The notes under the pieces: generated by a model
Databases searched by the model: none
What the model was told of the DNA's origin: nothing
Seen by the model: only the letters and a program-made list of their open reading frames with translations
Made by a program: the position numbers and the translations under genes
In this document: positions 16,364-63,306 of the stretch, piece after piece
Layout of the letters: each line of letters begins with the position of its first letter
Position numbering within the stretch: position 1 is the first letter of the stretch
Source: Coleofasciculaceae cyanobacterium
GTDB taxonomy: Bacteria; Cyanobacteriota; Cyanobacteriia; Cyanobacteriales; Xenococcaceae
Direction: 5' to 3'
NCBI GenBank assembly: GCA_036703275.1
Contig: DATNPK010000070.1
Span: 1 to 64,000, forward strand
DNA length: 64,000 bases

Positions 16364-16593
16364 GTAAAAATTCGTTTTCAGTTGAATAGACTACGTTTTC
16401 TTGAAGCAGTCGCTCATGGGGCTTGCACCGCTTAGTTTGGTGGAAACCCCCAAGACCGCCCTAAAGGATTAGCTCCTTACGTCGCGTCCGCTGCTTCGCT
16501 TTCAACTAGTTAGTTTGTAGCTATTAGCTGCGCAAAGCCTTGCTTTGCCAGTCGTCTTACGACGACGACGCGCAGCGCGTACGCGCTGCGCTA
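16364..16593. repeat. Mosaic palindromic repeat block A, variable part
   Basis: No gene is present between gor and the COP23 gene. This segment has shared modules and hairpins: GGAAACCCCCAAGACCG near 16442, CCTAAAGGA at 16460-16468, the hairpin GCAAAGC-CTT-GCTTTGC (16532-16548), the stem GTCGT-CTT-ACGAC just after it, and a perfect 22-bp palindrome at 16570-16591. The CCCCCAAGACCG module is found again, inverted, near 59.7 kb. The order suggests a composite dispersed element. Confidence 0.75.
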
Positions 16594-16689
16594 TTAGCTT
16601 TTTTAAATTTTATTATTGTGGTCTACTGATTTGAGCGCGGGGGATGCTGACTCAGGTTCAGCATCCCCCGCGCTGTTGAAAAGCGCAGT
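16594..16689 (+). repeat. Dispersed hairpin element, copy 1
   Basis: A 96-bp unit whose left flank (TTAGC, T-run, AAATTTTATTATTGTGG) and right flank (GTTGAAAAGCGCAGT) recur inverted at 59503-59601. The centre is a perfect 17-bp stem: AGCGCGGGGGATGCTGA (16634-16650) and its complement (16658-16674), with loop CTCAGGT. The second copy has a different upper stem that still pairs and keeps CAGGT in the loop. No T-run follows the stem, so it is not a simple terminator. Confidence 0.85.
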
Positions 16690-16819
16690 GAAATGGCGAT
16701 CGCTTTTTTTGTTTTACTCAAATATTGGCATCTGACTAAAAAATTTACCTGGTTTGCATAGTATTAATTAACAAACGTAATACCTAACCATAACCTTACT
16801 GTTTTCAGTTGAGTTTTGC

Positions 16820-26782: not shown

Positions 26783-27184
26783 TTATCCGTGATGAGGATC
26801 GTTGATATATTCTGTTATTTTAGCGGTGCTAACCTTGCCTGTTGTATCGAACATATAAGAGTGAGTCCAAAGGCTAGGAAGCTTCATCAATACGGGAAAT
26901 TCTTTTCTTAGATATCGCGACGATCTGCCTTTGAAAGCTTTGACTACTTGAGAGATTGAATGTTTTGGATCGTATTCTACTAGTAGATGCACATGATCGG
27001 GTGCTACTTCTAAGGCTTTAATTATCCATTGTTTATCTTTAGCCACGCTATTAAATAAATCAATACATCTAGATTTGATAGCTTCATTTTTAGCCGTAAA
27101 TATTCTTTTCCTACGGCAAGGAATCCAAACCAAATGAACCGTACATCTTCCCAGTGCGTGATTATAGTGGCGATATTCACTCAT
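26783..27184 (-). CDS. tnpA: IS200/IS605 family Y1 transposase TnpA
   Basis: HUH-type single-strand DNA transposase of 133 aa. The metal-binding HxH is in APDHVHLLVEY and the catalytic tyrosine in KITEYINDP near the C-terminus. The N-terminus (YNHALGRCTVHLVWIPCRRKRIF) is normal. It cuts and rejoins single-stranded ends as a dimer with a peel-and-paste mechanism. The gene lies inside the left end, divergent from tnpB with 51 bp between their start codons. Length is near the family norm, so it looks functional. Confidence 0.92.
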   Translation of the reverse strand: MSEYRHYNHALGRCTVHLVWIPCRRKRIFTAKNEAIKSRCIDLFNSVAKDKQWIIKALEVAPDHVHLLVEYDPKHSISQVVKAFKGRSSRYLRKEFPVLMKLPSLWTHSYMFDTTGKVSTAKITEYINDPHHG

Positions 27185-27235
27185 TTCCTTCTGTAGATAC
27201 CATATTCTCTTCTACAAATATGGGATCATTAAAGT

Positions 27236-28429
27236 ATGAAAGTTAGATACGCATACAGAATTTACCCTACCTCACCGCAGCAACGAGCATTGGCTCGGTT
27301 GTTTGGTTGTGTGCGGACGGTTTGGAATGATTCTCTAGCTTTGTGTCGTATGAGTAGCAAACTACCTAAGACCTCAGCACTACAAAAGCTGTTTATCACG
27401 TTAGCCAAGAAAACCCAAGATAGGGCATGGCTAAAAGATGTTTCGGCTATACCGTTGCAGCAATCAATTAACGATTTAGGAGTAGCATTCAAAAACTTCT
27501 TTTCTGGTTTAAATAAGAACAGAAAAATAGGCTATCCTAAATTTAAAAAACGCAGTAACAAGCAAAGTGCGAGATTTACAAAAGGCGTTTTTTCTATCAA
27601 AGGCGATTCAGTATATTTAGCCAAAATAGGACAGCTTAAAACCAAATGGTCTAGAGAATTACCATCACCGCCATCCTCTGTAACAGTTATTAAAGACTGC
27701 GCTAATCGTTATTTCCTAAGCTTTGTAGTTGAGATTGAACTGATATCCAAGCCCACGCCAAAAGAATCAATTGGGGCTGATTTGGGCATCAAGATATTTG
27801 CTGCATTGAGTAATGGAGAAAAAATATATGCACCGTGTCTCAAACAGCTAGACCGTAAGATTAGATGCACCCAAAAGCAACTAGCTAGATGTATCAAAGG
27901 TAGCAACAGAAGAGATAAAGTCAGGCTCAAACTAGCTCAACTTCATGCAAAATTAGCTGATACAAGAAAAGACTTTTTGCACAAACTATCTACTCGTTTG
28001 GTACGGGACAACAAGTTAGTAGTTTTAGAGGACTTGGCTGTCTCTAATATGGTTAAAAACCGAAGATTGGCTCGTGTTATATCCCAACAGGGTTGGAGTA
28101 TGTTTCGGACTATGTGCCAGGCAAAAGCTAATCAATACCAAGATAGAGAAGTGCGGGTAATAGATAGGTGGCAACCTACATCTCAAGTTTGTTCTAGCTG
28201 CGGATACAAATGGGGCAAGTTGAATTTGTCTGTGCGGGAGGTGGTTTGCTCAGGATGCAAGGTATCACATTGTCGCGATATTAATGCAGCTAAAGTTATA
28301 AATAATGTCGGGGTAGGGCATATCCACGACACAAAACGGACGGTGAGCCACAGTAAGACCGACTTGTCGGCAAGTTGCAACGAAACGTCAACTCGTAAAT
28401 TAGATATAGTTCAATTGAAACTATTCTAG
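27236..28429 (+). CDS. tnpB: RNA-guided nuclease-like accessory protein TnpB
   Basis: TnpB of 397 aa, the ancestor-type relative of Cas12. The split RuvC residues are present: Asp in GADLGIKIF, Glu in VVLEDLAVSNM, and Asp in CRDINAAKVI. The zinc finger CSSCG...CSGC lies between the last two. The N-terminal KVRYAYRIYPTSPQQRALARLFGC is standard. TnpB proteins cut DNA guided by an RNA from the element's right end; here that RNA would cover the 3' end of the gene and the right hairpin. The frame is intact. Confidence 0.93.
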   Translation: MKVRYAYRIYPTSPQQRALARLFGCVRTVWNDSLALCRMSSKLPKTSALQKLFITLAKKTQDRAWLKDVSAIPLQQSINDLGVAFKNFFSGLNKNRKIGYPKFKKRSNKQSARFTKGVFSIKGDSVYLAKIGQLKTKWSRELPSPPSSVTVIKDCANRYFLSFVVEIELISKPTPKESIGADLGIKIFAALSNGEKIYAPCLKQLDRKIRCTQKQLARCIKGSNRRDKVRLKLAQLHAKLADTRKDFLHKLSTRLVRDNKLVVLEDLAVSNMVKNRRLARVISQQGWSMFRTMCQAKANQYQDREVRVIDRWQPTSQVCSSCGYKWGKLNLSVREVVCSGCKVSHCRDINAAKVINNVGVGHIHDTKRTVSHSKTDLSASCNETSTRKLDIVQLKLF

Positions 28430-40305: not shown

Positions 40306-40523
40306 AATGTATTACTTCTCCATGCCTGATAAATTTCTATACTAGTGATTACAGTCATAATGATCAAATCAGCATTTATTATGCTTATTTGGTCGAATTT
40401 ACCAATTGATCGCCATAAATTTGCTCAAAATGACCAAATATTGACTATTAATGAAGCTAACTGGTTAGACTATCAGCATTTAGATTCTCAAGAATATCCA
40501 GGTTATCGGGTTTCTTATTTCAA

Positions 40524-40836
40524 GTGTTTCATGATGTGGCAAAAAAGATGAATATGCAAATTTTGGAGATGAATGTAGAGAAAGAAGATCTCCACGCCCT
40601 GATTGAGTATCCACCTAAGCTATCTGTTTCTAAAATAGTTAATGCTCTAAAAGGTGTATCCAGTCGTAGATATGGACAAGCGGGATTTACCAAACCTAGA
40701 GGCGGAAAAGCATTATGGAGTCCTAGCTACTTTGCAGTGTCGGTAGGAGGTGCGCCCATCGAAGTTTTAATAAAGTATATTAGAAAAAGAAAGTCGCCCT
40801 TCAGCGTAGCGTAGGGCGAGGCTTGTATCCCAAAGT
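40524..40836 (+). pseudogene. Decayed IS200-family transposase remnant
   Basis: A 97-codon frame (to 40814) has the C-terminal two thirds of a Y1 transposase: VAKKMNMQILEMN, PPKLSVSKIVNALKGVSSRR and ALWSPSYFAVSVGGAP, with the tyrosine in IKYIRKR. The first 40-50 residues of the family are missing. The HxH motif is altered (DLHAL instead of DHVHL), so it is inactive. A right-end-like hairpin CGCCCT...AGGGCG follows at about 40793-40818. Confidence 0.8.
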
Positions 40837-40932: not shown

Positions 40933-41280
40933 ATGCCTGACCGTTGGTCAAACAACTATCACATATTTATAGTCTACCGACTGCCATTACATCATCGCGA
41001 TCCTTTTGACCGCATTTTAATAGCAACGGCGATGCCTTCGGCTACACCCATTCGGGTGCGACGCGAGGCTAGTCCTAAAGACTCAGCTAGTCCTAAAGGA
41101 TAAGCTACGAGACCGAAGGGCGGAGTGCGGTTTATCCGTGAATCCGTGATTGGCAAATCATGCACGGGCATATCCTTTAGGGCAAGCGCTTGGAGCGTAA
41201 TCGCCGAAAATATTTATTTGATGAGTGCAGATGAGCAGTTTCGCCTTTATGAGGTGGATTTAATTTGGGGATTAGATTGA
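40933..41280 (+). pseudogene. PIN-domain (VapC-like) toxin remnant split by a repeat
   Basis: Frame 40933-41034 ends with RLPLHHRDPFDRILIATAM, the conserved C-terminal core of PIN-domain ribonucleases. The expected continuation, VIAENIYLMSADEQFRLYE and VDLIWGLD then stop, resumes in the same frame at 41197-41280. The 160 bp between is dispersed repeat DNA with an in-frame TAA. The N-terminal half of the gene, with the first catalytic Asp residues, is missing. No antitoxin gene remains. It is a toxin-antitoxin relic interrupted by the repeat family. Confidence 0.8.
41035..41196. repeat. Dispersed repeat inserted in the PIN gene
   Basis: Contains ACCCATTCGGGTGCGACGCG, a degenerate and a full CCTAAAGGA core, and a 61-bp unit (41098-41158) that recurs inverted at 62993-63053 with 59 identities. 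The tail ATCATGCACGGGCATATCC matches 59778 onward. Its length is a multiple of three, but it brings a stop codon. Confidence 0.8.
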
Positions 41281-59502: not shown

Positions 59503-59601
59503 ACTGCGCTTTTCAACAGCACGGTTGGATATGCGCCACCTGCGGGCGCATCCCCCGCGCTCAAATCAGTAGACCACAATAATAAAATTTAAAAAAGCTA
59601 A
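59503..59601 (-). repeat. Dispersed hairpin element, copy 2
   Basis: Inverted 99-bp partner of 16594-16689. On the minus strand the flanks TTAGC...TTATTGTGGTCTACTG and GTTGAAAAGCGCAGT are the same, and the stem base AGCGCGGGGGATGC is kept on the left side. The upper stem reads GATGCGCC-CGCAGGT-GGCGCAT, pairing differently from copy 1 yet keeping CAGGT. The lower right arm has decayed. Confidence 0.85.
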
Positions 59602-59883
59602 AAGTGAGACAGTTGCGTCAAGGATATGCGGAGCTAGTCCTAAAGGACTCCTAAAGGACGACGCGAAGCGCAAAAGTGCGGTCTTGGGGGTTTCCCCCAT
59701 GAGCAACTTTTGTAAGAAGCTAGTGTGACCGAAGGTGTCTATAGCGGATACACCTACGGATATACCATGCACGGGAATCATGCACGGGCATATCCTTTAG
59801 GGGACTTTTCTAATGACTCAAATAAAGCCTGACGCGCCACTACCTAATTTGTAAGTTATTTAATTCACAATCCTAAACATATT
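59602..59883. repeat. Mosaic palindromic repeat block B
   Basis: Contains two CCTAAAGGA cores (59639-59647, 59650-59658), GACGCGAAGCGC, the module CGGTCTTGGGGGTTTCC (shared, inverted, with about 16440), CATGCACGGGAATCATGCAC (59766 onward, inverse of 54492-54517) and TCCTTTAGG (59793-59801). An 71-codon minus frame across it is an artefact of the repeats. No gene. Confidence 0.8.
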
Positions 59884-62981: not shown

Positions 62982-63306
62982 TTAAATTTAGCATTTGCCA
63001 ATCGCGGATTCACGGATAAACCGCACTCCGCCCTTCGGTCTCGAAGCTTATCCGTGATAGACGCTCGTGCGATCTTACAGAGCGTGGGGCTTCCCGTCGG
63101 GAAAGCTAAAATATTTATTGGTATTGGTATTGCTTTGACTTTAAATTAAATTAGATGCGGGTAAACTCTTGGTCGCATCTAATACCCCTTTCTTTTACTG
63201 ATATTCTAAATTTTCTGCTAATAAGAAATATTGGCTAATTAGTATAGATCGATCCTGCTCGATCGCACTTTTGCTTAACTATTTTGCCCTGGATGGGACG
63301 CAATAT
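62982..63306. repeat. Repeat unit and hairpins upstream of the broken tnpB
   Basis: 62993-63053 is the inverted 61-bp partner of 41098-41158. It contains a 9-bp stem CACGGATAA...TTATCCGTG (63011-63056). A second hairpin, GCTTCCCG-TCG-GGAAAGC, lies near 63090-63107. A 127-codon plus-strand frame across this area is not supported because it overlaps transposon and repeat DNA. No gene. Confidence 0.7.

Follow-up and report, generated by a model that had tools for sequence, protein, structure and literature searches.

The window (the whole 64,000-nucleotide stretch of cyanobacterial DNA that was analysed) carries two related units in inverted orientation, each composed of a short hairpin within a longer repeat. 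The features are as follows.

16366-16395, forward strand: left end of the outer, MITE-like repeat, copy 1 (5 mismatches in 30 positions to the left-end consensus)
16594-16692, forward strand: unit copy 1, the right-hand portion of the outer repeat with the hairpin lying inside it (87% identity to copy 2)
16631-16634, forward strand: TTGA, the 5' foot of hairpin copy 1 and its presumed target (columns 5-8 of the covariance model)
16635-16679, forward strand: hairpin copy 1, 45 bp (covariance-model match at 16627-16681, 38.1 bits)
59503-59604, reverse strand: unit copy 2, the right-hand portion of the outer repeat with the hairpin lying inside it (assigned by its identity to copy 1 as an inverted pair)
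59513-59560, reverse strand: hairpin copy 2, 48 bp, typical, with unpaired bases on its 3' arm (model match at 59511-59568, 62.4 bits)

A reading of the letters alone (hereafter the sequence-only reading) had placed the units at 16594-16689 and, inverted, at 59503-59601, and we confirmed both positions. The flanks of the units are as similar as that reading stated, with 87% identity over query positions 1-96, and a repeat finder returns an inverted pair of 74 nt at the two units. The hairpins match those it quoted, and the difference between their stems (TGA/TCA versus GCC/GGC) is a true two-sided change. The search of the complete genome for further copies that it had proposed (5.62 Mb in 116 contigs) revealed eight full copies together with one, L009, that lacks the hairpin. 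Copy 1 of the window is atypical among these; its hairpin is a perfect palindrome without unpaired 3'-arm bases, whereas GCATATCCAACC, which includes unpaired bases, is present in the 3' arm of the other seven full copies. Beside both units (about 16458-16600 and 59604-59800) lie dense, short palindromic repeats of two types, CCTTTAGG and GCTATTAGC. Another inverted repeat pair (41098-41158 and 62993-63053; 61 nt, 97% complementary) bears no relation to the hairpin as far as we looked.

The single unit of the sequence-only reading is real, but it resolves into two nested layers, an outer repeat and a hairpin of about 48 bp. The conserved flanks, counted there as part of the hairpin unit, constitute a second repeat that is also present without the hairpin. 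With up to 3 mismatches allowed, the hairpin-free right end was found at 36 places, in all six genomes searched, and controls returned 0. On these sequence comparisons, a dispersed, MITE-like outer repeat supplies the flanks as its right end, and its left and right ends read by eye as mutual inverted repeats; a search with the left-end consensus returned no left end for copy 2. The point at which the hairpin interrupts the outer repeat lies between TTTGA and AAAG. In other genomes, the hairpin occurs alone in unrelated surroundings. Because the outer repeat and the hairpin each exist without the other, the hairpin is an element of its own, and the eight copies, the hairpin-free L009, and the solitary hairpins of other genomes place the repeat beyond chance.

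From foot to core, the hairpin folds into a variable foot of 4 bp, two pairs, a G that faces two unpaired A residues, and four core pairs; a 2-nt bulge in the 3' arm, one pair, a variable tip of 5 bp, and a 5-nt loop complete the structure. The core stem is almost invariant; the sequences of tip and foot are free to differ between copies, yet each remains self-complementary. Further copies were collected with a pattern confined to the core (GGGGGATG, 7-25 free bases, CATATCCAAYC). A scan of genome contigs yielded 106 stretches, and 80 loci were sorted by record title into 47 that are cyanobacterial and 33 that are not. The cyanobacterial matches come from Xenococcaceae, Pleurocapsa, Xenococcus, Hyella, Okeania, Spirulina, and 'Cyanobacteria bacterium SBLK'. 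Comparison of tip and foot serves as an internal control, since neither belonged to the search pattern. The free stretch that forms the tip is 15 nt long in 44 of 47 cyanobacterial matches versus 1 of 33 others; at least four of the five tip pairs form in 43 of 47 versus 3 of the 29 others whose length allowed scoring; and at least three of the four foot pairs form in 44 of 47 versus 6 of 33. In the 44 equal-length rows (36 distinct; three cyanobacterial rows were dropped), pairing is seen in 96.4% of cells, and two-sided changes occur in 9 of the 16 pairs.

A covariance model, R1, built from the 44 rows and applied at E ≤0.01 matched all 18 genomes searched from the window's family and none of nine genomes from other families of the order. 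Copies per genome ranged from at least 3 to at least 49, with at least 31 in the window's genome; these are lower bounds because 150 candidates were scored per genome. Across 292 genomes spread evenly over the phylum, R1 matched in two, both of the window's genus, a result that says little about rarity elsewhere because this search applied tighter filters and about 19 candidates were scored in each genome. Of the 94 R1 hits, at 86 loci, two duplicated another position and five were partial or on the reverse strand; the other 87 were kept. Joined to the 44 pattern rows, with which they overlap, they make 131 records. A model length of 58 columns, which corresponds to a 48-bp insert, is shared by 122 of the 131; the remaining 9 were dropped, and the 122 represent 96 distinct 58-mers and 87 distinct cores.

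The ends of the hairpin are recurrent. NTGA, usually TTGA, immediately precedes the element on its 5' side in 77 of 96 distinct copies, and TGTTGA stands at the 3' end of 59. A second end type has AGC-like feet, in most cases with AAGA at the 3' side, and accounts for 14 of the 96 (CCTGTG in two of these). In the 10 copies preceded by ATGA, CTGA, or GTGA, the last four 3' bases never equal the 5' four; these unequal tetranucleotides rule out target duplication. The sucrose-phosphate phosphatase of one genome (G003) contains 16 extra residues that are absent in all 16 other orthologs aligned (17 sequences aligned among at least 20 loci). The closest ortholog aligned preserves a precise empty site in which GTATTTTGA runs directly into CCAGCAAGAG. 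Similarly, PntB at locus L120 has a 16-residue insert that is absent from 15 of 15 orthologs aligned (among at least 20 loci), and the DNA around this site has diverged. Inspection by eye of the empty site in sucrose-phosphate phosphatase, and of two further sites that were inferred, did not support derivation of the foot stem from the target. The apparent right end of an element that is presumably IS605/TnpB closely follows the hairpin at L027, L040, and L243, and in one case the hairpin is a tandem pair. The first tandem copy is absent at L243, where the empty site is visible.

Seventeen of the 131 loci, drawn from overlapping collections, place the hairpin within an open frame under a limit of 40 codons on each side. 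By our own count these represent 14 events, with the hairpin on the coding strand in 10 and on the opposite strand in 4. Pfam assigns the host frames to RRXRR/HNH (IscB-like, with a HEARO RNA beside it), UvrD, DDE_5, S6PP, C5 methylase, CobW, PNTB, D12 methylase, ISL3 transposase, DUF5906, DDE_Tnp_1_2, 23S_rRNA_IVP, and a cNMP-binding protein; the host frame of L096 has no Pfam match. We infer movement from comparison of such sites. A family of small mobile hairpins is well supported by the collected copies, and the hairpin itself is very probably mobile.

The sequence-only reading rested its case for structure on a single compensatory difference, and covariation bears this out across the family. 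Among the 87 distinct cores, two-sided changes are present in 15 of 16 stem pairs. Pairing reaches 95.1% of 1392 cells versus 69.4% in shuffles, and the covariation score is 0.669, compared with 0.192 for shuffles and no more than 0.141 for slid versions, although collection by core pattern or model favours the core and the paired state; none of 500 shuffles reached the observed pairing or score. Pairs within the core also covary (columns 18-40, AT 78 and GC 8; columns 14-45, GC 49 and AT 29). The unpaired bases are retained: G15 and A43 each occur in 86 of 87 cores, and A44 in all 87. Compensatory change holds for the family because 15 of 16 pairs are two-sided and 95% of cells are paired.

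Several features of individual hairpins were also observed. In feet of the CCGA/GAGG kind (L248-L252, L215, L221, L264), columns 11-12 form tandem G-A/A-G with columns 47-48, which may be a structured mismatch rather than a broken stem. L212 and L213 share tip and core and differ in their feet (TGGC/GCCA versus AGTC/GACT), each of which is self-complementary; feet and tips look like exchangeable modules in this pair. In two genomes (L029 and L038, both at 1499-1557), GGACA/TGTCC flanks the hairpin and could form a larger stem.

The conclusion that selection maintains the structure of each resident copy fared less well. At one orthologous site present in four genomes (L031, L044, L045, L205), the changes in columns 21 and 48 affect one side only and disrupt some of the pairs, which is the observation that the sequence-only reading had named as contrary to its proposal. 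No two-sided change was seen at this site. Because of these one-sided changes, admittedly at a single site and in a small sample, selection in place is not borne out.

These changes also bear on a model in which the hairpin is selected, and perhaps moved, as RNA, either as a structured transcript converted back into DNA or as a cis-acting segment of messages. On the given strand, G.T exceeds A.C by 45 to 11 in 86 copies and by 23 to 9 in 21 clusters (p=0.02), as a strand-specific fold would give, and there is a precedent in the RNA route that Elhai reportedly proposed in 2008 for the SDR repeats of Nostoc. The excess weakens under looser clustering (p=0.05 and p=0.11), however, and may be inflated by collection with a covariance model. 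It suggests a strand-specific fold, which single-stranded DNA would explain equally well, and does not decide between DNA and RNA. At the Rfam gathering score, no match was obtained in the window, and 16 hairpin loci yielded only HEARO, beside iscB and off the hairpin; with no match on the hairpin itself, a known RNA family is ruled out. Considering also that the hairpin occupies the non-coding strand in 4 of 14 in-gene events, and that changes at the orthologous site are one-sided, we regard the RNA model as unlikely.

The loop provides a second departure from the sequence-only reading, in which it was held to be constant. The eight full genome copies exhibit two loop sequences, each in both orientations: CTCAGGT in one copy (L001) and its reverse complement ACCTGAG in two (L002, L004), CGCAGGT in three (L003, L005, L006) and its reverse complement ACCTGCG in two (L007, L008). 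The two copies that had been compared have the same loop orientation. In a set of 86 rows, both orientations occur within five groups of identical arms, giving 6 pairs; a loop-flip permutation test gave a mean of 2.3 and reached 6 in 45 of 5000 trials, and reverse-only and complement-only controls gave 0. Two copies of iscB that carry the hairpin at an identical position have loops GGTTA (L241) and TAACC (L242). Moreover, the first 39 bases of copy 1 in the window are the exact predicted product of one DNA template switch, in which the left arm and loop of an L002-type sister copy would be copied back as the reverse complement. L209 is a second perfect palindrome. We infer that resident copies change by template switching during replication, which would generate flipped loops and like arms such as those of copy 1.

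This process raises the question of whether structural selection is needed at all. The hairpins might simply hitch-hike in MITEs and transposons, with template switching producing their two-sided stem changes; the loops inverted within five groups of identical arms, the flip between L241 and L242, and the palindromes of copy 1 and L209 are what such a process would leave, and two published studies report compensatory changes and loop inversions through template switching (PMC8794818, PMC8604942). Template switching alone should erase one-sided unpaired bases as one arm is copied onto the other, yet the AA persists in nearly all of the 87 cores, which suggests a need for it in movement. Hitch-hiking does not explain insertion at unrelated sites with empty orthologs, and the repeated NTGA and TGTTGA ends require a site-specific step. 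We therefore consider an origin by hitch-hiking and switching alone to be quite improbable. For the proposal of a structured mobile repeat, the covariation and the occupied and empty sites stand, and the compensatory signal is real at the level of the family; the copies compared bear out neither a constant loop nor selection in place.

We favour, at roughly even odds, a model in which the hairpin is a non-autonomous mobile DNA element that is recognised as a folded single strand and moved in trans, its structure being selected during movement. In this model, a recombinase would recognise the folded strand, which the one-sided unpaired bases would mark; the hairpin would be cleaved beside TTGA and then joined on the 3' side of a second TTGA; and selection would act on the structure at that step rather than at each resident site. 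The cutting enzyme would most likely be a Y1 (HUH) transposase of the IS200/IS605 type acting in trans. IS200/IS605 elements insert 3' of a fixed short target without duplication and fold back as single strands with unpaired bases on one side. Y1 transposase matches number 14 in the window's genome and 106 in six relatives. Within the window, Pfam identifies an IS200/IS605-type pair at 26783-28429 (Y1 transposase, 26783-27184, reverse strand; OrfB/TnpB-like protein, 27236-28429, forward strand). Another Y1 match in the window, a partial one, is at 40506-40787. When similar Y1 loci were paired, the stretch they share was bounded by TTGAC in 3 of the 10 pairs and not in the other 7, and a TTGACANACTCC-like word with at most one mismatch occurs in 9 of 44 Y1 loci. 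No hairpin was found near Y1 genes in these 44 loci of 1.7-3.4 kb, which include all 14 from the window's genome and 30 of the 106 from relatives. We recognised no IS200/IS605 guide sequence in the hairpin, and the search returned no autonomous partner or mobiliser. That two end types (NTGA/TGTTGA and AGC/AAGA) share one core argues against the Y1 model. By eye, 15 positions in one genome (G007), whose origin was not located, displayed no clear replication-strand bias. The assignment of the moving step to a Y1 transposase is accordingly tentative, somewhat short of an even chance.

The same observations could be accommodated by a site-specific recombination substrate of a different enzyme, such as a tyrosine recombinase working on folded single strands in the way integrases work on attC sites. 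Such an enzyme would fit the unpaired bases on one arm, the variable tip, and stems that are kept more in shape than in sequence, as well as the pairing of one core with two end types and, in the loci scanned, the lack of Y1 linkage. IS200/IS605 elements, on the other hand, are the ones that insert 3' of a fixed tetranucleotide and leave no duplication, and we judge the non-Y1 enzyme improbable, even more so than hitch-hiking with template switching. It is tempting to speculate further that this 48-bp single-strand-folding unit represents an undescribed class of codon-sized mobile hairpin with a dedicated recombinase, that its length permits 16-amino-acid inserts to spread through housekeeping genes, and that NTGA and AGC on one core reflect a modular targeting code; we hold this reading to be less likely than not.

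Several known systems resemble the hairpin. Elhai et al. reportedly described in 2008 the SDR repeats of Nostoc punctiforme, said to be 21-27 nt in length, to undergo compensatory changes, and often to be nested in minitransposons. The hairpin is likewise a very small cyanobacterial mobile repeat with a structure supported by compensatory change, nested in minitransposons and precisely inserted. It differs from SDR repeats in its length of 48 bp, its NTGA/AGC targets, and its unpaired G/AA, a distinction drawn from descriptions of SDR repeats, and in its hosts, which are Xenococcaceae, Okeania, and Spirulina rather than Nostoc. SDR5 inserts precisely between bases 3 and 4 of HIP1 (PMC4390886). 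Rickettsia palindromic elements, in the source cited, lie in frame in unrelated protein genes and measure about 150 bp (PMC10969869). The hairpin shares their in-frame occurrence in unrelated protein genes (17 of 131 loci, 14 events), a likeness of description, but is 48 bp long with a short target. REP/REPIN sequences, as described in two papers, are short, imperfect hairpins present in many copies, as this one is, and are thought to be moved in trans by a Y1-type RAYT (PMC3733652, PMC3116915). Membership in the REP/RAYT group was rejected, with no GTAG or CGTC among the listed feet of 96 distinct copies and no hairpin beside Y1 genes in 44 loci. The hairpin resembles IS200/IS605 elements and their miniature derivatives in its insertion 3' of a fixed short target without duplication and in its unpaired bases; it differs in that the hairpin is nearly the whole element and in that neither a guide sequence nor an autonomous partner was found. 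An earlier description of the 48-bp hairpin was not encountered in the literature searched, a scope that excludes Elhai 2008 and most subscription journals.

The hairpin would rank among the smallest mobile elements that have both precise empty sites and strong structural covariation. Its behaviour also advises caution in applying covariation tests to DNA repeats, inasmuch as template switching can yield two-sided changes and flipped loops. Finally, its in-frame inserts of 16 codons, which lie in transposases, a UvrD-type helicase, a CobW protein, PntB, and sucrose-phosphate phosphatase, are a counterpart in cyanobacteria of the Rickettsia elements and provide a natural experiment in the insertion of residues into proteins.
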